From Ignavibacteriales bacterium (lineage in GTDB: Bacteria; Bacteroidota; Ignavibacteria; UBA10030): DNA of 64,000 nucleotides. Under the pieces are notes generated by a model. The model saw nothing but the letters and a program-made list of their open reading frames with translations, was not told where the DNA came from and searched no databases. The stretch spans positions 1 through 64,000 of the forward strand of contig JAPLFR010000002.1 in the NCBI GenBank assembly GCA_026390575.1, read 5' to 3'. Within the stretch, counting starts at the first letter, position 1, and every line of letters begins with the position of its first letter. This document shows, in pieces, positions 5,451-64,000 of the stretch. The position numbers and the translations under genes are program-made.

Positions 5451-5487
5451 TCTACGGTAAATACCGTAATTATACGCTTGAGGTTAC
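5451..5487. repeat. Left inverted repeat of the IS1595-type element
   Basis: Reverse-complementary to 7861-7897 with four mismatches. The core is a perfect 20-mer at 5462-5481 matching 7867-7886. It contains the near-palindrome ACGGTAAATACCGT. A further ACCGTA/TACGGT pair lies just outside (5441-5458). Confidence 0.75.
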
Positions 5488-5622
5488 TAAATGACGCCGA
5501 TATTAGCCAAAAATGACAGAGTAATACCAAATGTATTTAAGAAACGATTCGGGGTGTCAAGGGAAACTTATGTGAACGATATGGGTGATTGGTTACTTTG
5601 GGGTGGAGATATTCCCGGTTGG

Positions 5623-6018
5623 CTACCGCAAAAGTATAAGAAGCAGTATAAACATCTCGATAAACAAAAACGATTGAACAATAGATTCTATTCGTACAAT
5701 GACGCCACTCTCGGAGATTCTTTTTTCTATAGTCTCATGCAAGATTTTCTCGGTCATAGTATCTATGATTTCATAATCGTCAAAAATCTGTTCATAAAGC
5801 TCTTTGGTTTTCAAAAAGCTCCACACGATGAGCCAACAAGAGAACACAGAAAAGAGAACCAAAAGAAGGATAAGAAGATGATTCCCTGTGGCAGAAAGTA
5901 AATAAATAGCAGAGAATACGCTAAGAAGTATTCCATTAATTGTCAGGAGCGCACCCCAGTACATATATCTTGATTCACGTATAATTTGAGAATATTGAGT
6001 GCGGGATTTTTCGGACAT
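5623..6018 (-). CDS. Small three-helix membrane protein (IS passenger)
   Basis: A 131-residue protein with predicted membrane segments at about 21-43, 46-69 and 112-130. A charged amphipathic linker (70-110) lies between helices two and three. It begins MSEKSRTQYSQII. No enzyme motif is visible. Two close N-terminal helices plus a helical cytoplasmic part recall SLATT-type membrane effectors, but this is a shape resemblance only. It is the last gene of the passenger operon, 40 bp after the 55-residue gene. The opposite strand is also open for 136 codons (5491-5901), but that product runs from outside the element and looks spurious. Confidence 0.6.
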   Translation of the reverse strand: MSEKSRTQYSQIIRESRYMYWGALLTINGILLSVFSAIYLLSATGNHLLILLLVLFSVFSCWLIVWSFLKTKELYEQIFDDYEIIDTMTEKILHETIEKRISESGVIVRIESIVQSFLFIEMFILLLILLR

Positions 6019-6058
6019 TTGAGATTACTCTTATGAATAAAGAAAATAAAAATATTCT

Positions 6059-6226
6059 TTACTGTTTCGGTAATTTAATCTCTTGCGGATTTACCCGAAC
6101 AATACGCTGTATGAACTCATGGAAAGGTATGGCTTTTCCTTTCATGTTTCCATCGAAGATCATTTCAATCTTTGTTTTGCGTCCGCGTTTAGTGGCATGT
6201 TTATTCGTTGGTTTGGGTTTGTTCAT
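6059..6226 (-). CDS. 55-residue basic protein, translationally coupled
   Basis: ATG at 6226 overlaps the stop of the upstream gene as ATGA; the stop codon is at 6059-6061. The N-terminal half is Lys/Arg-rich (MNKPKPTNKHATKRGRKTK). The C-terminal half contains FHEFIQRIVRVNPQEIKLPKQ-type residues, a short amphipathic segment followed by a fixed tail. A second copy of the tail survives at 8658-8711, where six of seven codon differences are silent in this frame. That supports coding on this strand rather than the opposite one. The function is unknown; small basic proteins with a V-x-x-x-E tail commonly accompany other small genes, and a partner or antitoxin-like role is possible but untested. Confidence 0.7.
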   Translation of the reverse strand: MNKPKPTNKHATKRGRKTKIEMIFDGNMKGKAIPFHEFIQRIVRVNPQEIKLPKQ

Positions 6227-6864
6227 GTGTCTGACCTTATGGGGAGTTCTGTGAGATGACCTTTTATATATGCCTGAAGAATTACCTGAAAATTTGTATG
6301 GATAGCATCAAGAGTAACTACGTCCACCTCAAAATGCTCTTTGCACAATCGGCACTTAAATTCAATAATACTATAGCGCATACCCATTGCTCTTTTTTCT
6401 TTGGCGAGCATTTGCACATGATGTTTGGAACAGTAACAACCATCGTAAATTTTTCCGCTATTGGCATGATACATAAAGGTAATATTATCGAAAGTATGGA
6501 ATTTTTCAGGTTGAATGGGTTCTTTTTGTACAGGTTTAAAGATCGACGTTTCTTCTTCTTTAATCGGATTAATAGATTCAACTTCGTTTGGTTTGCTGAG
6601 AGATTTTTTTGTTCGTATGCCTAAAAGGAACATGAATGAACTCACAAGTATTATATAAAACACTACAAATAATATCTCTATTGTACCCCATCGCATTATT
6701 GGTTTGGTCAGGATATTTATTAAATGATTTCTTATCCAAGAAAAAAGAAATACGAGAGTGCCTATCCCAATCGAAGAACATACACTCCAGAGAATATATC
6801 CATAGGCACTTTCTTCAACTGATTTATACAGCCGTTGTTTTCGTATTTTTAACCAGTTGTTCAA
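6223..6864 (-). CDS. Two-helix membrane protein with zinc-ribbon tail (IS passenger)
   Basis: A 213-residue protein with predicted membrane helices at about 22-43 and 61-82, then a charged linker (84-125). A C-terminal soluble domain carries C143-x-C145, H148-H149 and C171-x2-C174, a likely zinc-binding ribbon. No family is recognised. It starts 33 bp after the transposase stop and overlaps the 55-residue gene by four bases, so it belongs to the element's operon. It may be a membrane sensor or effector; only the topology and Cys pattern support this. Confidence 0.7.
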   Translation of the reverse strand: MNNWLKIRKQRLYKSVEESAYGYILWSVCSSIGIGTLVFLFSWIRNHLINILTKPIMRWGTIEILFVVFYIILVSSFMFLLGIRTKKSLSKPNEVESINPIKEEETSIFKPVQKEPIQPEKFHTFDNITFMYHANSGKIYDGCYCSKHHVQMLAKEKRAMGMRYSIIEFKCRLCKEHFEVDVVTLDAIHTNFQVILQAYIKGHLTELPIRSDT

Positions 6865-6897
6865 TTGCTTATTTGATCGTATTTATTTTGAATTATT

Positions 6898-7812
6898 CTA
6901 TTTATTAATCAAGGCTCTATATGTCAATCTTCCTTCACATGCGCCTAACAATAAACCAAATCTTACAGAGTCATTTTGTTTGCGAGAATTGTAGCGATAT
7001 TCAAACTCTTCGCAGTATCTATGTAAATGTTTTTTAGAGGTATGATGATATATACCAACAATACCGCGTTTAAGCAAGCTCCAAAATCCTTCAATGGTGT
7101 TTGTGTGAATGATACCATCAACGTATTTGTGTGCGCTATGGTTAATAACTTTATGATCTTTGAACTCTTTATCCAGTCCTTTGTATGCAGTGTAGTTGTC
7201 TGTCATAAGGGTAGAATCGGGAGTTACACCTTTTCTGATAATTGGCTTTATGGTTTCTGCTTTAACGTTTGGAATAGTTTCTATTCGAGCATTTCCACCG
7301 CGTTCCACCATACCAAAGACCGGGGATTTTTCTGGATTGAATCCTTTGCCATAACCGTGTCTTGTACCGCCAATAAAGGTTTCATCAACTTCAACGATAC
7401 CACCAAGAGGTTTTTCAAAAGAACCCGTTGTCATGGTAAGCCTTATTCTATGCAACATGTGCCAAGCAGTAGCTTGACGAACACTAATATCTTTAGCAAG
7501 CTGGCAGGAAGAAATACCTTTCTTGTGTGCAGACACAACGAACATCGCATGAAACCACTTCTGCAAAGGAAGTGCGGAATCCTCGAAAATAGTGCCAACT
7601 TTAACAGAAAACGGCTTTTTGCAAGCAGAGCATTTAAAGAGTTTTCCACCTTGAATCTTATACATCTTCTCAGTGCTTCCGCAATGGACGCATACGGGCT
7701 TATCTCCCCATCTGGATTGAATAAGAAACTCTCTACAAGATTCTTCAGTAGGGAATCGTTTAATGAGTTGAAGCAGGTTATTGATCTTGGGTTCTTCGAT
7801 TGTCTTTTTCAT
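6898..7812 (-). CDS. IS1595-family transposase
   Basis: A 304-residue full-length transposase. The N-terminal zinc ribbon has C41-x2-C44 and C61-x2-C64. It is followed by an HTH-like segment (about 97-122) and a DDE/DDN-type catalytic domain with D143 in VDETFIGG, D205 in TDNYTAYK, and the N238-x2-E241 region in HTNTIEGFWSLLK. The C-terminal GIYHHTSKKHLHRYCEEF block is characteristic of the IS1595/ISSpo3-like group. All landmarks are intact, so the protein should be active. It is the first gene of a four-gene unit inside inverted repeats. Confidence 0.95.
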   Translation of the reverse strand: MKKTIEEPKINNLLQLIKRFPTEESCREFLIQSRWGDKPVCVHCGSTEKMYKIQGGKLFKCSACKKPFSVKVGTIFEDSALPLQKWFHAMFVVSAHKKGISSCQLAKDISVRQATAWHMLHRIRLTMTTGSFEKPLGGIVEVDETFIGGTRHGYGKGFNPEKSPVFGMVERGGNARIETIPNVKAETIKPIIRKGVTPDSTLMTDNYTAYKGLDKEFKDHKVINHSAHKYVDGIIHTNTIEGFWSLLKRGIVGIYHHTSKKHLHRYCEEFEYRYNSRKQNDSVRFGLLLGACEGRLTYRALINK

Positions 7813-7860
7813 GGTCGTTTCCTTGAGTTTTTAACTACACAAATATACAACAATTCTCTG

Positions 7861-7914
7861 GTAATGTCAAGCGTATAATTACGGTAAATACCGTAGATGT
7901 ATGCCTGATGTTAC
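7861..7914. repeat. Right inverted repeat lying in a 54-bp imperfect palindrome
   Basis: Bases 7861-7897 are the inverted partner of the left end. The sequence continues past it as an imperfect palindrome centred on ACGGTAAATACCGT, with outer arms beginning GTAA and ending TTAC. The part 7881-7916 is also a direct repeat of 5455-5490 (31/37 positions by eye). The site is 50 bp upstream of the transposase start, so it may also be its operator. Confidence 0.65.
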
Positions 7915-7971
7915 TAAGAATTCGGCGAAAATGGACTGTTTTCAGCGAAACGCAATTTTTAAAATAGGTCG

Positions 7972-8430
7972 CGCAATCAGGTAAAGTGACGTAAAAGTGA
8001 CAGAAAAGATGAAAAAAGACTTTGATACCGTAGATAGAGGAAATTTGAGGTAAGATCGAAAAAAGAGTTACTTAAAGCTTAAATAGTGTTGTGCTAATTG
8101 GGTAAAGTGGATGTAAGCGCGGCAGACTTTAGTAAAATATTTTTGCTTGTATTATAGAGAGATGAAAAAGTTTTTGCTGATATTAATAGAGAAGACTTGT
8201 TGCAATCAGGTAAAGTGTGCAAAAGTTGTGAAGATTGTGGAAAAATATCTTGATACCATAGATAGGGAACACTTGGCGTAAGTCCTAAAGAAAGAGTTAC
8301 TTACAGCATAAAAAGTACTGTGTTAATTGAGTAAAGTGAGTGTAAATGTTGAAGGATTTAGAAAAAAGTTTTTGCTTGTTAATAGAGAGATGAAAAAGTT
8401 TTTGGGATTTATATAGAGAGATCTCTGAAA
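7972..8430. repeat. Non-coding tandem repeat, ~229-bp period with half-units
   Basis: Two diverged copies start at about 7972 and 8201. Shared landmarks in the same order are CAATCAGGTAAAGTG, GATACC[GA]TAGATAG, GAGTTACTTA[AC]AGC, AATTG[GA]GTAAAGTG and TAGAGAGATGAAAAAGTTTTTG. The box AAT[TC].[GA]GTAAAGTG recurs four times, near 7974, 8093, 8203 and 8324, at 110-120 bp spacing. So the array is really four ~115-bp units in an A-B-A-B pattern. No coding frame follows the period. The right flank of the IS shares TACCGTAGAT with it. Confidence 0.75.
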
Positions 8431-8445
8431 TATTAATTGAATAAC

Positions 8446-8547
8446 GGTAGTCGCGAACTCCCGCCTGCCAAAGTCTCGCTTGTGGGACGGCGGGAAGGTT
8501 AGTTCGCAATTGTGTTCAGAAAACGCAATCTGAAAAGCGCGACTACC
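8446..8547. repeat. 102-bp nested palindromic (clover-leaf) element
   Basis: The outer arms GGTAGTCGCG (8446-8455) and CGCGACTACC (8538-8547) are perfect complements. Inside are a first hairpin made from GCGAACT / AGTTCGC (8453-8459 and 8501-8507) reinforced by CCCGCC / GGCGGG, and a second hairpin TTGTGTT / AACGCAA. The result is a three-way junction. It is G+C-richer than the surrounding DNA. It could be a REP/MITE-like mobile palindrome or a structured RNA; no gene is attached. Confidence 0.7.
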
Positions 8548-8657
8548 ATAATAAAATCGATTATTCAGATGTCTCATATAGTAAATCATTGATTCAATTT
8601 TTTTGTTCAATTATCGTAGAGGACATAAATGAAAAGCAATAATAAAAAAACTAGTCC

Positions 8658-8777
8658 TTATTGTTTCGGCAATTTTATTTCTTGTGGATTTACCCGAATA
8701 ATGCGTTTCATCGTTTCCAAAAATGACTGAACTTGTTCAATGGGTTTCTTGACTTGGGGCTTAGTTGTTGTTTTTTT
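8658..8777 (-). pseudogene. Fossil copy of the 55-residue gene
   Basis: The last 15 codons before the TAA at 8658-8660 encode RIIRVNPQEIKLPKQ, matching the tail of the 55-residue protein (6059-6226) except for one Val/Ile change. The frame is open back to 8777 but has no plausible start: the only ATG gives 17 residues, and an in-frame stop lies at 8778-8780 next to a run of nine T. Some 30 bp further along, an ATGTCC at 8626 echoes the start of the small membrane gene that follows the intact copy. This is probably the remnant of an older copy of the passenger cassette. Confidence 0.6.
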
Positions 8778-52291: not shown

Positions 52292-52576
52292 TGCACACCT
52301 TCTTTTCTGAAATAATTGTACTCAAAACTGGAGTGATTGTCAAGGTTACAACTCTCCTCTAAGAAAGACGAAATCGATTACTAGGTTGTTCCGCATCAGA
52401 AGATAAAATGTTCATTGATGAATAAAACAACACTGCCGTATCATACTGTGTTTATGAAGAAAAATCAAGAAGGATCCTCAGCATGCAGAGCAACATCGCG
52501 GCAATGGAGTTTTTTTGTTTTAAGACCACCTTTCAGTATATTTTTTTATGAAATTATTTTACGCAAGTGCTCAAGA

Positions 52577-53845
52577 ATGAAAAAGCAATTAGAACCATGG
52601 CGCAGGAATCTGTACATCATCTGGACTTCACAATTCCTGGCGATGATGGGGATGAACCTCGTAGTCCCCTTCCTTCCATTCTATATCCGAGAACTCGGCG
52701 TCACCGATCCTGAAGTAATTGCAAGTTGGAGCGGACTTGTTTATGCAGGGCCATTCTTTCTTTCCTTCTTTTTCACACCATTATGGGGAATGATGGGCGA
52801 TAAGTACGGCCGCAAGTCCATGACTGTCCGTGCAATTTTTGGATTAGCAATTTCTCAAGCGCTTATTGGTTTCTCTCCAAACGTTGAGATGCTTTTTTTC
52901 TTTCGGATGGTTCAAGGAGCATTGAGCGGTTTCGTAGCTTCAGCGCTTGCACTTGTATCCGAAACGACTCCGCGAGAAAAGTCAGGTTACGCAATTGGCA
53001 TTTTGCAAACAGCTTCTGCCGGCGGCACTGTCATTGGACCGCTCGTTGGGGGCACACTTGCAGATATGTTTGGTTATCGCCCGCTCTTTTTTATTGTTGC
53101 CGCGATATGCGCTCTTTCAGGTATTGTTGTTGTAAAATATGTGCGGGAGACACATGAGCAGCGCGTCGAATCGGTTTCATTTCATATGCTGATTGACAAC
53201 TATCGCTATGCGCTTCGCTCAAGACCTATTCGGATCGCGCTCGGCATTATTCTACTTTCGCAGGCCGCTATTCTTATGATACAGCCAATATTTTCTTTGT
53301 ACGTCGATTCGTTAGAGATAAACAAGGAATATCTTGCAACAATTTCTGGAGCAATATTTTCTACGACAGGTCTAGCAATGGTCATCTCGGCACCATGGTG
53401 GGGAAAACGAAACGATGCGAAAAGTTATAAGAAAAACCTCTCCATTGCCATCATCGGTTCCGCGGCGGCATTCGCCGCACAGGGATTGGTGACGCAAGCG
53501 TATCAACTCATTTTTCTTCGAGCACTCCAGGGACTTTTTATGGGAGGATTACTTCCAACTCTCTATTCGTACGTGACAAAGAATTCATCTAACGAACGCC
53601 GCGGCGGTATTATCGGTATTGCGTCCAGCTTCAGCGTTCTCGCAGCAATGATTGGGCCGCCCTTAGGCGGATTGATCGCTGCAGAAGTGGGATTAAGGGA
53701 AAACTTTTTTATCACCGGCGGCATTTTATTTTCTGCCGTCATTCTCGTCCGATTATTCTTTGTTGATATGCACGGCAATGATGGATTGCCATCAACTGAC
53801 GCTGCCAATGTTGCCGAAGTGGAAATGTTAGAAGAGGCAAGTTGA
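52577..53845 (+). CDS. Major facilitator superfamily transporter
   Basis: The ATG at 52577 gives 422 residues with MKKQLEPWRRNLYIIWTSQFL at the N-terminus and 12 predicted helices. The frame extends another 54 codons upstream but those residues look non-coding. GDKYGRKSM is the MFS loop 2-3 motif. The closest families are drug/multidrug efflux carriers of the TetA/MdtG kind; the substrate is unknown. It stands alone on the plus strand. Confidence 0.9.
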   Translation: MKKQLEPWRRNLYIIWTSQFLAMMGMNLVVPFLPFYIRELGVTDPEVIASWSGLVYAGPFFLSFFFTPLWGMMGDKYGRKSMTVRAIFGLAISQALIGFSPNVEMLFFFRMVQGALSGFVASALALVSETTPREKSGYAIGILQTASAGGTVIGPLVGGTLADMFGYRPLFFIVAAICALSGIVVVKYVRETHEQRVESVSFHMLIDNYRYALRSRPIRIALGIILLSQAAILMIQPIFSLYVDSLEINKEYLATISGAIFSTTGLAMVISAPWWGKRNDAKSYKKNLSIAIIGSAAAFAAQGLVTQAYQLIFLRALQGLFMGGLLPTLYSYVTKNSSNERRGGIIGIASSFSVLAAMIGPPLGGLIAAEVGLRENFFITGGILFSAVILVRLFFVDMHGNDGLPSTDAANVAEVEMLEEAS

Positions 53846-53906
53846 AATGTCAAAGAACAATACTTCATAGATCAAAGAAAATATTCTTCTCGTTGACTTC
53901 TCCGCG

Positions 53907-55799
53907 CTATTCTTCCAATGTCATAATATCCTTCGGTTCTTGACCCAATGCCCTCGCTTTGAGTACCCGGCGCATAATTTTCCCGCTTCGGGTTTTTGGT
54001 AAAGAATCAACAAACTCGATATGTTCTGGTTTTGCAATTGGTCCCATCTCATGTGAAACGTGGTGGCGGAGTTCTTCGATAAGTTTATCACTTTTTTCAA
54101 TTCCGGTTTTCAAAATAACGTACGTATAAATCGCATTTCCTTTCACTTCGTGCGGCAAACCGATTGCAGCTGCTTCAGCGACTGCTGGATGGCTTCCAAG
54201 CGCACTCTCAATCTCAGCTGTGCCCAATCGATATCCAGAGACTTTGATGACATCATCCACACGGCCGATGACCCAGTAATATCCATCTTCATCGCGTTTT
54301 GCCGAGTCTCCTGTCAGATACACACCGGGGAATTTGCTCCAGTATTGATTGACATACCGATCCGGATCTTTATAAATCGTACGCATCATTGCCGGCCAAG
54401 GGGTCTTAATCACAAGGAATCCTTCTTCATTTGGGCCAACCGGTTTTCCCTCCTCGTTGTAAATGTCCATCTTTAATCCAGGAAATGGACGCGTACCAGA
54501 TCCTGGTTTTAGCGGTACAACAGGCGTTGGAGTGATCATAAACATCCCTGTCTCTGTCTGCCACCATGTATCCATTATCGGACATTTCCCTTTGCCGATG
54601 ACGCGGTGGTACCATTTCCATGCTTCAGGATTAATTGGCTCACCGACAGAACCAAGCAATCTGAGAGATGAAAGATCATGGCGGTTTGGCCATGCTTCAC
54701 CGAAACGCATCAGACCTCGAATGGCTGTCGGAGCCGTGTAGAGAATATTGATGCCATAGCGCTCAATCATCTGCCACCAACGATTTGGAAATGGATACGC
54801 CGGTGCTCCTTCATACATAAATGACGTAGCGCCATTTAAGAGCGGTCCATAGACTATATAACTGTGTCCAGTGATCCAGCCCGGATCAGCCGCGCACCAG
54901 TATCGATCTTCTTCTTTAATATCGAAAACGTACTTGAGCGTCGCGTAGGTGCCGACCATATATCCGCCATGTGTGTGAAGAATGGCTTTCGGTTTGCCGG
55001 TTGTACCAGAAGTATAGAGAAGAAAAAGGGGATCTTCGGCATCTACTTTTTCAATGTTGCACTGACTATTTGCGATCGGAAGAGCCATCAACTCATGAAA
55101 CCACATATCGCGTCCCGATTCCATATTGACCGGCTCGCCTGTCCGCTTTACAACCAAAACACTTTCAACACTTGCCGCACGTTGCAATGCTTCGTCCGCG
55201 ATTGCTTTCAGCGGAACTATCTTGCCTCGCTGGTACGATCCATCTGCGACAATCAATATTTTGGAGTGGCTATCTTCCAAACGTTCATGCAATGCCTCAA
55301 CAGTAAATCCTCCGTAGACAACTGAATGAACCGCTCCAATCCGCGCACACGCCAGCATACCAATGACAAGCTCAGGAATTCTTCCCATATATAATGTCAC
55401 GCGGTCGCCTTTTTGCACTCCGAGACTTTTCAGAACGTTCGCAAACTTGCATGTCTCACGGCGCAGAGCAAAGTAGGAGAATGAACGGAACTCGCCTTTT
55501 TCCCCTTCCCACATGAGGGCAAGCTTATTACGGTGGGCTGTTTTTGTATGCCGGTCCAGACAGTTGTACGCAATATTCGTTTTGCCTCCAACAAACCATT
55601 GATAGAATGGCTTCTTGGAATCGTCCAGGACTTTCGTCCATGGTTCAAACCAGTGCAGTTCACTTGCTTCCTTCGCCCAGAATCCTTCCAGGTTAATCTC
55701 CGCTTGTGCACTGATAGCTTCCCAGTCACGGGCACGTGCATTGATAATTGTATCATTTGATGGATAAAATATTTCGCCTGTCAGCTTTTGGTCTGCCAT
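53907..55799 (-). CDS. acs: Acetyl-CoA synthetase
   Basis: A 630-residue AMP-forming ligase. YTSGTTGKPK is the P-loop, DTWWQTETG carries the residues that close the acyl pocket, and PKTRSGKIMRRVL near the C-terminus holds the regulated lysine. It activates acetate to acetyl-CoA with ATP. The usual TETGG is TETGM here, so the acyl preference might be slightly shifted (acetate or propionate). It faces the MFS gene convergently with 61 bp between. Confidence 0.93.
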   Translation of the reverse strand: MADQKLTGEIFYPSNDTIINARARDWEAISAQAEINLEGFWAKEASELHWFEPWTKVLDDSKKPFYQWFVGGKTNIAYNCLDRHTKTAHRNKLALMWEGEKGEFRSFSYFALRRETCKFANVLKSLGVQKGDRVTLYMGRIPELVIGMLACARIGAVHSVVYGGFTVEALHERLEDSHSKILIVADGSYQRGKIVPLKAIADEALQRAASVESVLVVKRTGEPVNMESGRDMWFHELMALPIANSQCNIEKVDAEDPLFLLYTSGTTGKPKAILHTHGGYMVGTYATLKYVFDIKEEDRYWCAADPGWITGHSYIVYGPLLNGATSFMYEGAPAYPFPNRWWQMIERYGINILYTAPTAIRGLMRFGEAWPNRHDLSSLRLLGSVGEPINPEAWKWYHRVIGKGKCPIMDTWWQTETGMFMITPTPVVPLKPGSGTRPFPGLKMDIYNEEGKPVGPNEEGFLVIKTPWPAMMRTIYKDPDRYVNQYWSKFPGVYLTGDSAKRDEDGYYWVIGRVDDVIKVSGYRLGTAEIESALGSHPAVAEAAAIGLPHEVKGNAIYTYVILKTGIEKSDKLIEELRHHVSHEMGPIAKPEHIEFVDSLPKTRSGKIMRRVLKARALGQEPKDIMTLEE

Positions 55800-58862: not shown

Positions 58863-59386
58863 TTTTTTTGTTGCCGGCGGCGGAAGATAAGTGAAATCCC
58901 CCAGAGAATAATGAGTACGGGCCAGTAGGTGTGCACATAGTATTTCATCTCAAACCAATCAATCACATCCCACCACCATAAATAGTACAGAATGCCGTAC
59001 CCGCCGAAGAAGAGCATGGGAATAAGTACACCAAAACGACGCGGTTCATAGAAGAATAACATCAAAAATGAAAGGCCGAGCGCAAGAGAAAAAGTTGCCG
59101 GGACATCCCACGGAGCAGAATTAAAAAGTTCAAACCTGTGGACGAGAATTGCAATGCTCGAGAAGAATAAAAAGCTTCCCCAGAAAACCACTCCGCGTCT
59201 TCGCGTGATAAAGGCCTGGACTGCCGCCGCAAGTCCTGCAACGCCCAGACACACCCAAAGAATAGTCCCCCATTTATAATGAAATAGATTCAGCTTGCTC
59301 AGGATAAGTCCCGCGCCCAGCAGAATCAAAAAAATTCCGAATATGGAAAATCCGCTGGACCGCTTTCGTGTAATCGTTTCCATCAT
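58859..59386 (-). CDS. LiaI/LiaF-like multi-helix membrane protein
   Basis: A 175-residue protein with five to six predicted helices, including FSIFGIFLILLGAGLILSKL at the N-terminus and HTYWPVLIILWGISLIF at the C-terminus, the patterns of LiaI/LiaF-type transmembrane domains (DUF5668). It is four bases from the PspC gene, so the two form a pair probably linked to envelope stress. No kinase or sigma gene is adjacent. Confidence 0.8.
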   Translation of the reverse strand: MMETITRKRSSGFSIFGIFLILLGAGLILSKLNLFHYKWGTILWVCLGVAGLAAAVQAFITRRRGVVFWGSFLFFSSIAILVHRFELFNSAPWDVPATFSLALGLSFLMLFFYEPRRFGVLIPMLFFGGYGILYYLWWWDVIDWFEMKYYVHTYWPVLIILWGISLIFRRRQQKN

Positions 59387-59390
59387 TTCC

Positions 59391-60101
59391 TCACTGTTGT
59401 GTTCTTGTTTGCGGTTGACCTTCAGGAATAATCAAGTACATCAACAAATAAATCAAAATTCCTGTACCGCCGGAAAGCACGGTAAAAACCGCATATGCAA
59501 TACGGATGATTGTCGGATCGATATCAAAATATTCTCCCGCTCCTCCACAAATCCCAAAAAGTTTTTTATCGCTCATCGAACGCCGAAGCGCTTTCGGTTT
59601 CGGCTGGTCATGTGGTGAAGAATCCTTGTGTGGTATCTGATCCTGAGAGGGCTGTTCCCCTGTCATTGGTGATTCTTGTGATTGCAGAGGCGTTGAAATC
59701 TTGTCGTGTTTTGTAAGGAAATAAATACCGGCAAGAATAAGAAGCCCGGGGAATACAAATTCCCACGACATATGCCACCAGCGATGAAATGATAAAATAT
59801 CAAGATTGTCAAGTAAGATAGCGACGCCTGCGCCAACGAACAGAAATCCAAAAATGCGCACAGCAGTAAAATCATGAATCTGCGGCGAAGTTGCTTGACC
59901 AGGTTCAATTGGTTTTTCTGGAACAATAAAATATGCGAGGATATATGCAATAATTCCTGCACCGCCTAGAAGTGTTAAGAGAATCCAAACAAGGCGGACA
60001 ACCGTGGTATCTACGTTCAAATACTCACCGAGTCCGCTGCAAACTCCGGCAACCACTTTATTCGTTTGATTTCGATAGAGGCGGCGTTGTTGATTAGTCA
60101 T
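59391..60101 (-). CDS. Double PspC-domain membrane protein
   Basis: A 236-residue protein containing two PspC domains, at about 6-62 (KVVAGVCSGLGEYLNVD...) and 170-230 (KLFGICGGAGEYFDID...). The middle has a LiaI-like pair of helices (about 85-130). PspC proteins sense or bind the membrane stress machinery. Having the second domain at the C-terminus is less common than a single N-terminal one. It lies just upstream of the LiaI-like gene. Confidence 0.88.
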   Translation of the reverse strand: MTNQQRRLYRNQTNKVVAGVCSGLGEYLNVDTTVVRLVWILLTLLGGAGIIAYILAYFIVPEKPIEPGQATSPQIHDFTAVRIFGFLFVGAGVAILLDNLDILSFHRWWHMSWEFVFPGLLILAGIYFLTKHDKISTPLQSQESPMTGEQPSQDQIPHKDSSPHDQPKPKALRRSMSDKKLFGICGGAGEYFDIDPTIIRIAYAVFTVLSGGTGILIYLLMYLIIPEGQPQTRTQQ

Positions 60102-60154
60102 GGAAGTCTCCTGTTTGTTTCGTCAGTTATATTCTCAATACGAATTTCAGTTGC

Positions 60155-60212
60155 GAAGGTTACATTTTCAATCTGAAAAAAGAAATCCCGATTCCGTTAT
60201 TTCGAAACCGGG
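60155..60212. repeat. Direct repeat flanking the GH15-like gene, left copy
   Basis: 58 bp starting GAAGGTTACA; 45 of 58 positions match 62471-62528 without gaps. It includes the hairpin that ends transcription of the GH15-like gene. Confidence 0.65.
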
Positions 60213-60216
60213 ATTT
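60175..60216 (-). terminator. Terminator of the GH15-like gene
   Basis: On the minus strand AAATCCCG and CGGGATTT (60183-60190 and 60209-60216) form a strong stem, followed by TTTCTTTTTT. It lies about 57 bp after the stop codon of the gene at 60273 and protects the PspC gene from read-through. Confidence 0.8.
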
Positions 60217-60272
60217 CACATTTGACTGGTTGAGTCGGAAATGTTAAGTATTTACATTGATTTATTTATTTT

Positions 60273-62177
60273 TCATTTAGAAACCTTGCTGTAATATAAC
60301 AGGGCAGCCGAAAACTCTGCGCTGCACCATGAAAGTGGCGATGCCGGGCTACAATCGCTATTGTTTAAATATATTCTTTCAGGCATCAGGCCATAACTGT
60401 TCGAATTGTTTATCATCCAATCGATATTTTGTTTTGCAACTTTCGGATTTCCAAACAAAGAATGGTATTGGGCACTGGCTGCCGTGGTGAAGAAAAAGCA
60501 GGCATGTCCATAATCGGTCAAACTATTATCAAGTGTTTCAAAATATTGTACCCCACCATTCAGTTTATAGGTATTCTTCTGGTAGAAATTATTGGATTCA
60601 ATTGCCTCTTTATGATTTGGATAACCCCAGATGAGGCCAAAATTCATGGAACAATCCCACAAGTACAAAGTATCTTTTGTGATGTTTGAAAGGCTTTCAT
60701 TGTTCGCACCTTTTATACCAATATACCGGACATCAGCATAGGTTCCGTTCTTCTTATCGAACATCATAATTAAGTTAACCGATATTTTTTCTGAAGTATT
60801 TTTATAAAGCAACGCTTTGTCCTTATCCCCAAAGCTATCAGCTATCTTAGATGCCGTTAGGAGACTGGCTGCGCAAGTCATATTGGTAGCAGGTAAATAT
60901 CCAGTCCATTCAACAATTCCCCCTTCGTATAAAAGAGAATTTTTATCAATTTTACTTACCAGAAAATCAGCCAACTCGTAAATAAAATCCTTATTGACCA
61001 ACCAAACTTTCTTTTGCTGGTAGTACATATCGATCAATTGAATATAATATCCGTTGGCATCCCATTCGGGTTCATCATACCTGGCACCAGTTCCACCATC
61101 AACAGCTTTAGCATTTGCATCATACCTGGCATACCATTCGCCTTTGCTCTTTCGCGGGATTTCCTTTCTATTCCAAAACGTAATAATATCTTTTGCTTCG
61201 TCAAAATGTCCGGTCAATAGCATTACCCTGGCACACATCATTTCATCACGGGGATACAACTGGGGCATATTGTTTGTAACAAATTGCCCGGTGATATCGG
61301 CAGGAATTTGCCCATTTAAAATTGCTGATTTAACACAATATATATTACGTTCAAAAAAAGCAGAATAGCTTTTTTCATTTTCATTGAACTGGGGCACAAT
61401 TCCACTCTTCAGCCATTTACTCCAATAATCTTGGGCTGAAGCATATAAGTCTTTTTGTGACCGCAACCTGTTTACATTTTCAATAGCTTCATTTAATGAT
61501 TTCGAAGGGCAAATTATTACTTCGAGTTTTTCATCCGGTCTTACTTTACCTGTTACACTAACAACCGAACCTTTTATATCTACCAACTGTTCCGATGTCT
61601 TTCCAGCTATAACTATAAATACATTGTTAGACCATTCAGCAATGGCTTTGTTGTTTTCAACTTTTAACGAAACCATACGGATTTCTTTATCTGTGACTTT
61701 TTTATCTACAAGATTAATTTCAATCTTCTGTATTAATTCATTTGAACCACCTGAAACTTGTGAAGAAAGTATTATCGCATTTTCAGGATGAGCATAACAG
61801 TTTACCAATTGGACAGTTGAATTTGGATAGTAATTATTAGTGGAAGCTGTAAAAAAACTTTTAAATCCAATCTCTTTATCCCTTATTGCAATTAATTGAT
61901 TATCTGTTGACTTATTGTATAAGCTGACTTTAGACGCCGAAATATAATCGCAAGTATAATCATTATAGTAAAAATGCTGGATTCCTTTTCCATCAATTCG
62001 CCGATCATCTGAATATACCGCGCATATAGTACCATTACCAAGAATTGAATACCCTTTCCACGGTCTTTTTGAAAGTGAAATATCAGTATTTTCCAATTTT
62101 TGGGCGACAATTGATATCTCCCAAAAAGGAATCGAAAAACAATAGAATCCAATTAGAAAAATGCTTTTCATTTTCAT
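60273..62177 (-). CDS. Secreted GH15-like (alpha/alpha barrel) protein
   Basis: A 634-residue protein with a signal peptide (MKMKSIFLIGFYCFSIPFWEISIVAQ). The N-terminal ~240 residues are a beta domain. The rest matches the alpha/alpha-barrel plan of glucoamylase/glucodextranase-like hydrolases: LYPRDEMMCARVMLLTGHFDEA, DANGYYIQLIDMYY, VEWTGY, and LMPERIYLNNSDCSPASPLSWCSAEFSAALL. The final Glu-containing LMPERIY and AEF blocks resemble the GH15 acid/base region. The gene is visibly A+T-richer than its neighbours and flanked by a direct repeat, suggesting it was gained. The substrate is unknown. Confidence 0.75.
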   Translation of the reverse strand: MKMKSIFLIGFYCFSIPFWEISIVAQKLENTDISLSKRPWKGYSILGNGTICAVYSDDRRIDGKGIQHFYYNDYTCDYISASKVSLYNKSTDNQLIAIRDKEIGFKSFFTASTNNYYPNSTVQLVNCYAHPENAIILSSQVSGGSNELIQKIEINLVDKKVTDKEIRMVSLKVENNKAIAEWSNNVFIVIAGKTSEQLVDIKGSVVSVTGKVRPDEKLEVIICPSKSLNEAIENVNRLRSQKDLYASAQDYWSKWLKSGIVPQFNENEKSYSAFFERNIYCVKSAILNGQIPADITGQFVTNNMPQLYPRDEMMCARVMLLTGHFDEAKDIITFWNRKEIPRKSKGEWYARYDANAKAVDGGTGARYDEPEWDANGYYIQLIDMYYQQKKVWLVNKDFIYELADFLVSKIDKNSLLYEGGIVEWTGYLPATNMTCAASLLTASKIADSFGDKDKALLYKNTSEKISVNLIMMFDKKNGTYADVRYIGIKGANNESLSNITKDTLYLWDCSMNFGLIWGYPNHKEAIESNNFYQKNTYKLNGGVQYFETLDNSLTDYGHACFFFTTAASAQYHSLFGNPKVAKQNIDWMINNSNSYGLMPERIYLNNSDCSPASPLSWCSAEFSAALLYYSKVSK

Positions 62178-62554
62178 ATAATTCCTCTTGCTAGAATCGA
62201 TAAAATATTGGATTTAGAAGTAAACAAACTTGCGATTTGGTTTTTTTTCTTTTCACCATTGAACAATTATATCAGAATCACGGTAAAGCGTCAAGAGAAT
62301 TCAAACGATACTGTCAACTGTGGTATTCACATTCAATGATCCACCAAGTCAACTGCATACCTCGTGGTAATTACTTTTTTATTTTGATTTCAGAAGTGGA
62401 GTTGTTGATTTGCCCTCGGAAAACTCCTATTTAAATTGTCGTATTCATTTTCAGTACGGAATACATTTTTGAAGGTTACATATTCAATCTATAGAAAACA
62501 ATCCTTATTCCATTAATTAGAAATCGGTATACCATATCCAACAATCTATCGATA
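62178..62554. other. 377-bp intergenic region with the right copy of a repeat
   Basis: It holds the promoter region of the GH15-like gene and, 27 bp after the frr stop, the right copy of the flanking repeat. No coding frame with support was found. Confidence 0.5.
62471..62528. repeat. Direct repeat flanking the GH15-like gene, right copy
   Basis: Starts GAAGGTTACA like the left copy (60155-60212). The stem bases are changed (ATCC..TT against ATCCCGAT), so it no longer forms the strong terminator hairpin. It sits directly behind frr. Confidence 0.65.
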
Positions 62555-63118
62555 TCATACTTCCATTATTTCTTTTTCTTTCATAGCAAGATGATTGTCG
62601 ATATCTTTAATGTGTTTATCTGTAAGCTTTTGTGTATCTTGCTCACCGCGTTTTCGTTCATCTTCAGACATGTGTTCGCCTTTTTCAGCTTTTTTGAGAT
62701 GCTCGATGGCATCACGGCGGATATTGCGTATAGCAATCTTTCCATCTTCACCGAACTTTTTTACTAACTTCACCAGATCACGACGACGCTCTTCATTCAG
62801 CGCAGGAATTGGAACACGCACGATTGTTCCATCTGAAACCGGATTGAGACCAAGATTGGCTACCAGAATTGCCTTCTCAATGATCGGGATAATATTTTTT
62901 TCCCACGGTTGAACGGCAACCGTATGCACATCCGGTATGCTAACGTTTGCGACTTTATTCAGCGGAGTCATAGTGCCGTAGTAATCAATTTTAATTCCGT
63001 CTAACAGTGCTGTGGTTGCTTTGCCTGTGCGGACTTTTATAAGTTCTTCCCGTACAACTTCCACGGCTTTCTTCATTCTGTCTTCTGCTTGTTTCAGAAT
63101 ATCTTTTGAGTTTGTCAT
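62555..63118 (-). CDS. frr: Ribosome recycling factor
   Basis: A 187-residue protein with the three-helix bundle plan. KVRTGKATTALLDGIKIDYYG, LNKVANVSIPDVHTVAVQPWEK, GLNPVSDGTIVRVPIPALNEERR and IRNIRRDAIEHLK are diagnostic. It releases ribosomes from mRNA after termination together with EF-G. It follows pyrH by 36 bp in the usual tsf-pyrH-frr order. Confidence 0.98.
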   Translation of the reverse strand: MTNSKDILKQAEDRMKKAVEVVREELIKVRTGKATTALLDGIKIDYYGTMTPLNKVANVSIPDVHTVAVQPWEKNIIPIIEKAILVANLGLNPVSDGTIVRVPIPALNEERRRDLVKLVKKFGEDGKIAIRNIRRDAIEHLKKAEKGEHMSEDERKRGEQDTQKLTDKHIKDIDNHLAMKEKEIMEV

Positions 63119-63154
63119 AGGCGTCCCATCAATTAGTGAATTGGATGAATGATG

Positions 63155-63889
63155 TTACGATTTTTGTGTCGATATTTCAACTATTTTTGATCCAACCGCT
63201 TCTCCACAGACCACACGCTTCAAATTCCCGTGAATATTCATATTGAATATGACCAGCGGAAGGTTATTCTCTTTAGAAAGAGTGATTGCAGTGAGATCCA
63301 TAACCTGAAGGTCTTTTTTTAAAACGTCTGCATAAGAGATTTCGGGAAGATGGATAGCTGCAGGGTTCTTTTCTGGATCGCAATCATACACACCATCAAC
63401 GCGCGTTCCTTTGATGATCACATTCGCTTCTATTTCGATTGCACGCAGTACCGCGGCAGTATCGGTGGTAAAATAGGGATTTCCTGTACCTGCTGCAAAA
63501 ATAACCACACGGCCCTTTTCCAAATGACGGATAGCGCGCCGCCGAATAAACGGCTCGGCAATGCGTTGCATATCGATTGCACTCAAACAGCGTGTTTTTA
63601 ATCCCTTGTGCTCCAGCGAATTTTGTAACGCTAGTGCATTGATAACGGTTGCCAGCATTCCCATTTGGTCGCCGGTCACCTTATCTATACCGTCTGTGGA
63701 TCCTTCCATACCGCGATAAATGTTTCCGCCGCCGATCACTATACCGATTTGCACGCCAAGCTTTGCAATCGATGCAATCTCCTCAGCATAACGAGTCACT
63801 ACTTTAGGATCGATCCCGTACTCTCGATCGCCCATAAGTGATTCCCCACTGAGTTTTAAGAGAACACGGTTGTATTTGAGGTCTGCCAT
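63155..63889 (-). CDS. pyrH: Uridylate kinase
   Basis: The ATG at 63889, giving [18 protein letters not shown], is preferred over an in-frame GTG six bases earlier that lies in the ribosome site itself. The product is 244 residues. [41 protein letters not shown] and [12 protein letters not shown] mark the bacterial hexameric UMP kinase. It phosphorylates UMP to UDP. It lies just behind a terminator-type hairpin that follows tsf. Confidence 0.97.
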
Positions 63890-63901
63890 ACCCACCCCCG
63901 C

Positions 63902-63932
63902 AAAAAAAATCCCGAATTGTTTTCGGGATTTT
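63902..63932 (-). terminator. Hairpin between tsf and pyrH
   Basis: On the minus strand, AAAATCCCGAA pairs with TTCGGGATTTT and is followed by a run of eight T in all. It is a strong intrinsic terminator shape lying six bases after the tsf stop and about 13 bases before the pyrH start, so pyrH-frr expression depends on read-through or an internal promoter. The stem resembles the one at 60183-60216. Confidence 0.75.
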
Positions 63933-63937
63933 GATTT

Positions 63938-64000
63938 TTAATTTGATTCACCAAGATGATAACGAAGGAATCGACGAACAGTGATTTTTTCGCCAACCTT
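63938..64000 (-). CDS. tsf: Elongation factor Ts, C-terminal end
   Basis: The last 20 codons (KVGEKITVRRFLRYHLGESN) and a TAA stop are visible; the gene continues past the right edge. The VGE.I.VRRF.R..LGE ending is typical of EF-Ts, the nucleotide exchange factor for EF-Tu. Position upstream of pyrH-frr supports this. Confidence 0.88.
   Translation of the reverse strand, partial: KVGEKITVRRFLRYHLGESN

Follow-up and report, generated by a model that had tools for sequence, protein, structure and literature searches.

A GH15-like gene inserted between frr and pspC of an Ignavibacteriales bacterium lies between two direct copies of the junction, one of them decayed

Most bacterial accessory genes sit alone between conserved genes and bear no trace of their arrival. 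Short gene-sized differences at conserved junctions, such as the one described here, are known as small variable segments of bacterial genomes, of which 10–18% are flanked by direct repeats (PMC2884548); those boundary repeats are short and were read mainly as deletion substrates, whereas in our case they represent decayed gene ends whose intact parent can be identified. In E. coli, single crossover of circularised fragments gave duplications of 109–950 bp beside the integrated DNA (PMC3240628), and in our case, too, foreign DNA lies between two direct copies of a part of the target gene, with lengths of about 75–250 bp. While the E. coli products were obtained under laboratory selection and with plasmids, the events reported here are old and natural, with one copy decayed and a route that we infer. 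Homology-facilitated illegitimate recombination, as cited in PMC3240628 and PMC5361080 for Acinetobacter, Pseudomonas stutzeri, and pneumococcus, also resembles the route proposed below in that one end would be anchored by homology and the other joint would be illegitimate; however, the insertion that it yields in textbook cases comes with a deletion, while here the resident flank was kept, leading to a duplication. One-sided homology has also been proposed for displaced remnants in T6SS immunity arrays of Vibrio (PMC5361080). For Ignavibacteria, a literature search, thin on subscription journals, revealed no report on insertions with duplicated gene ends.

The duplicated frr–pspC junction

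The window, i.e., the whole stretch of 64,000 nucleotides that was analysed, carries on its minus strand pyrH, frr, a junction remnant (copy B), a GH15-like gene, pspC, and a LiaF-like gene in this order, with polA convergent (Table 1). The frr gene is 95% identical to that of G004, the nearest relative, and to that of G005.

Table 1. Features of the frr–pspC locus, with positions in the window.
Feature	Position	Strand	Basis
pspC with two PspC domains; lies downstream, is intact, and has its start duplicated	59391..60101	-	Pfam PspC, E 9.3e-43
Copy A of the junction: intact terminator, pspC leader, and first ~45 pspC codons	59970..60222	-	Alignment with copy B
Accessory gene of the insertion; GH15-like, probably a secreted six-hairpin glycosidase of 634 aa	60273..62177	-	Pfam Glyco_hydro_15 below cut-off; hydrophobic N-terminus
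Predicted promoter of the inserted gene, TTGACG-17-TATAAT, extended -10	62266..62294	-	Best promoter-like match at 59000-64000
Copy B: decayed junction remnant beside frr; terminator and pspC ATG lost, frameshifts	62286..62538	-	Alignments with copy A and relatives
frr (ribosome recycling factor), upstream neighbour	62555..63118	-	Pfam RRF, E 1.2e-63

The original prediction had described a direct repeat of 58 bp on both sides of the GH15-like gene, one copy directly behind frr and the other directly before pspC. The repeat is real, but these 58 bp form only the frr-proximal end of a direct repeat of about 253 bp with 70–71% identity and small gaps, which reaches from the frr terminator through the pspC leader into the beginning of the pspC coding sequence. 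Its local score was 200, compared to a maximum of 42 in about 300 random window pairs, and E-values of 1.5e-28 (BLASTN) and 3.7e-25 (search against the own genome) were obtained. The placement of the copies had to be corrected as well, since copy A, thought to end before pspC, runs about 115–130 bp into its coding sequence, and copy B, behind frr, is a decayed pspC start that also contains stops. Weak homology of copy B to the pspC genes of relatives goes on to about 62257–62264; an extension up to the start of the inserted gene appeared only under relaxed gap costs, was within shuffle range, and is not claimed.

Compared with the junction of G004, copy A showed 82% identity. Copy B together with 62539–62557 aligns to G004 starting directly after the frr stop codon, i.e., from the first base, and thus lies at the native place. 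As predicted, one copy still makes a strong terminator, located at 60182–60217 in copy A (fold of -24.2 kcal/mol, z -5.3), while the other has lost it (-6.6 kcal/mol, z +0.9); in G004, where the site is empty, the same hairpin is intact (-29.6 kcal/mol, z -9.2).

A search against the own genome found only two matching places and no third copy of the repeat, and the element proposed as a terminator-borne entry route for genes thus proved to be a junction duplicated at a single locus including about 45 pspC codons. The unit is therefore a duplicated gene start and neither a terminator family nor a mobile element. That the repeat belongs to a family of terminators or intergenic repeats and has nothing to do with the insertion, an objection already raised along with the original prediction, would agree with a terminator that is or was present in both copies; yet with two genomic places only, homology that enters the pspC codons, and the empty-site junction as single-copy ancestor, we regard it as extremely improbable. 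A REP-like or terminator family with many dispersed copies was rejected on the same count of two copies.

The empty site and the inserted gene

An empty order of frr, about 150 bp, and pspC was found in the three congeners G004, G001, and G003 as well as in other genera and families of the order. In G004, a single terminator and a single leader, 146 bp in all, separate the frr stop codon from pspC. Thus, the originally predicted order frr–junction–pspC is the ancestral one, and the GH15-like gene, which none of the 31 further family genomes contains, is an accessory insertion lying between two junction copies. Among 100 relatives, one homologue besides the gene itself was detected, in G097 of a different family (45%), and a donor search in genome_contigs, where two relatives carry the label Ignavibacteriae MAGs, found none.

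Since its Pfam Glyco_hydro_15 match (E 4.4e-4, 19.7 bits) remained below the curated cut-off of 22 and its NCBIfam glucan_glucosid match (E 2.6e-5) far below the cut-off of that model, the protein is named GH15-like only. Its fold prediction was poor (mean pLDDT of 48), and a search among solved structures revealed no relative. The gene is A+T-rich, as the first reading had it, with a GC content of 36.0% and a GC3 of 0.328, about 2.5 SD below that of core genes (0.432 +/- 0.042). The -35 hexamer of its predicted promoter sits on former pspC codons, and the promoter ends about 90 bp upstream of the gene start. This site was the best of 10 promoter-like sites at 59000–64000, judged by a sigma70-like consensus that may not be the host's. 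Matches at 11 of 12 positions occur six times in the whole 64-kb window on both strands, this site included, so that its position is unlikely to be due to chance. Going by these matches, the new gene would use a promoter lying in the remnant.

In three further genomes, other genes occupy the frr–pspC junction without any duplication, namely in G005 (724 aa), G002 (238 aa), and G014 (an acetyltransferase). Duplication is thus a by-product of one insertion mode and no requirement. The 724-aa gene of G005 (L033, 1241–3415) had no Pfam match, and a broken homologue (50%) was seen in G006. In the compared stretch of 20–89 kb, 11 of 44 core junctions differed by more than 400 bp among genomes, which makes the frr–pspC site permissive but not exceptional. 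Elsewhere in the window (52415–55799), two genes between the MarC-distant core gene (52291) and polA are shared with G005 and missing from G004, G001, and G003; no flank duplication was seen there.

In regard to age, the remnant has a branch length of 0.42 changes per site in a tree that by itself neither roots nor dates the duplication, and the synonymous distance between this genome (G000) and G004 amounts to about 0.5–0.9, indicating that the duplication is about as old as the split of the two. The insertion is therefore old. If the gene came with the duplication, its frame of 634 codons was kept while the adjoining remnant decayed, which would point to selection on the gene.

Recurrence of flank duplications in the genus

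A scan of 1.13 Mb (704 kb from this genome, 423 kb from three congeners) for two-copy repeats lying 0.3–15 kb apart with one copy non-coding resulted in 11 direct pairs and no inverted pair; prior to filtering by copy number, there had been a single inverted pair of which one copy was non-coding. Eleven direct versus zero inverted pairs exclude chance but are compatible with tandem duplication. The latter would mean that the frr–pspC junction or pspC was duplicated first and that the inner part of the spare copy was exchanged for an accessory gene afterwards. Tandem duplications are common and give direct pairs, and when gap costs are relaxed, the remnant may extend weakly in the direction of the inserted gene's start; however, no relative was found that carries the duplication without the insert, and several unrelated junctions would each have had to undergo this same coincidence, so that we consider this course of events quite unlikely.

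For four pairs of this genome, the corresponding site is empty in a congener. Thus, the pspC locus is not the only place where a duplicated end of a neighbouring gene encloses other genes; a search for such places had been suggested at the outset. The start of an SDR gene flanks both sides of an inserted two-component-propeller sensor kinase gene (1093 aa), where the marC–SDR gap of the congeners is 8–75 bp; the 3' end of a fructose-bisphosphate aldolase gene with its terminator lies on either side of two inserted genes, where G004 has 112 bp; and the promoter of a glycosyltransferase gene lies on either side of an inserted M28 peptidase gene. The duplicated piece in these sister cases was whatever stood at the junction, i.e., a promoter, a leader with start codons, or a gene 3' end with its terminator, and site and repeat length differed case by case.

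These differences also bear on a site-specific island, i.e., an integrase element that hit the 5' end of pspC, brought a replacement start, and then lost its integrase. Known elements do restore the gene they enter and have direct repeats at both ends, but the repeat here has 250 bp, the other cases lie at unrelated sites with different lengths, the interval contains no transposase, integrase, or any gene besides the insert, and no short recurrent core site for an integrase was seen at this locus or in the sister cases; we therefore hold such an origin to be very improbable. What was found is a foreign gene between two direct copies of its target with an empty target in relatives, as in an insertion with flank duplication, and neither terminal inverted repeats, nor further copies, nor a constant site and repeat length as in a transposon or integrase island.

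Similar pairs were observed in congeners. On contig C116 of G001 (L089/L090, ~67.1–73.7 kb), three genes of secreted type form a 6.6-kb insert behind ribE (riboflavin synthase), enclosed by two copies of 62 bp from the ribE 3' end with 89% identity; as one copy has two N at its edge, this may be an assembly effect. In G003 and G004, the enclosed genes were read by eye as antitoxin-like and methylglyoxal synthase, and one G004 pair may represent tandem paralogues. Altogether, insertions with flank duplication probably lie in three congeners, too. Gene order is not kept between contig C16 of this genome and contig C35 of G004, and the share of insertions with duplication was read from small samples.

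The comparison with relatives left out three pairs of this genome (window 6045, C16 227014, and C16 351885). The first of them (direct pair 6045–6106/8644–8705, 82%) lies at 5451–8705 of the window, where an IS1595-family transposase gene with a 37-bp inverted pair (5451–5487/7861–7897) is also located. A pair at the 3' end of a DEAD-box helicase gene (C16 157489–161114, L106/L107; copies at 157489 and 161020) was set aside due to a run of 2850 N between or beside the copies. REP-like repeats with about 5–11 copies each in the scanned part were noted at C16 216462–217492 and 306453–310268 (L109, L114), and a 191-aa gene resembling a REP-associated transposase is located near REP-like repeats on this contig.

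A possible route of entry and its meaning

The insertion event itself is certain, and we see an even chance that the GH15-like gene entered the frr–pspC junction by a recombination that left two junction copies, the imported DNA having carried the gene and its own copy of the flank. On the incoming DNA, the GH15-like gene would have been trailed by a separate copy of terminator, leader, and pspC start, and this DNA would have recombined with the chromosome over the pspC side, with homology at one end and an illegitimate joint at the other; alternatively, a circularised fragment may have entered by a single crossover. The resident junction copy would have been left beside frr, cut after about 45–55 pspC codons, and decayed to a remnant, while the imported copy would keep pspC whole with its leader and its terminator would end the new gene.

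Several findings favour import: the 253-bp direct repeat has its remnant at the native flank, the site is empty in relatives with the insert missing from the rest of the family, only two copies exist in the genome, the interval is devoid of transposase and integrase genes, and the pattern recurs in the same genome with direct pairs only. In addition, the inserts of the aldolase and peptidase cases also stand at the corresponding place in G005, in the latter case without the second promoter copy. In the peptidase case of this genome, the left copy is like G004 and the right copy like G005 at two of three differing sites, and the aldolase remnant, with its native outer flank present, is nearer to G004 than to G005 (30 versus 15 sites). 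Though diagnostic sites in the sister cases are few, this fits a congener as the source of the import, with insert and flank already adjacent there. A Pfam search of the genome resulted in a ComEC match and no Ku match, favouring homologous over end-joining routes in a host that may or may not be competent.

Against import counts that the relatives searched included no donor in which the GH15-like gene adjoins a pspC flank, and that a tree of copy A, copy B, and the relatives gave an AU p of 0.34 for each alternative topology, which keeps an in-place duplication viable. The replication fork could have come off its template within pspC, taken up foreign DNA by copying or capture, and continued about 250 bp upstream, so that both copies would be resident. 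Such template switching yields exactly the same geometry, requires no donor with a pspC flank, and fits both the phylogenetic inseparability of the copies and the direct orientation of every recurring pair; but the glycosyltransferase and aldolase copies lean to different congeners and G005 has the insert at the same place, for which reason we rate it as unlikely, though by no means negligible.

Returning to import by recombination, its chemistry is already known, and the interesting part is its repeated natural occurrence in one genus. We put forward only tentatively, as a possible generalization, that insertion with a duplicated neighbouring gene end is a major natural route for single genes into operon junctions of this Ignavibacteria genus, the imported copy keeping the neighbour functional and equipping the newcomer with a promoter or terminator, and the resident copy, once decayed, serving as a datable scar. 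From a decayed neighbouring gene end beside an accessory gene, one can read where the gene entered, on which side the joint lies, and roughly how old the event is. If such traces are common, they would allow gene gain by recombination in the absence of mobile elements to be tested for in a simple computational way, and would explain how genes are inserted into an operon or a gene start without destroying either. Altogether, the recurrent signature suggests that members of this genus add genes without breaking their neighbours, by a kind of recombination known from the laboratory.
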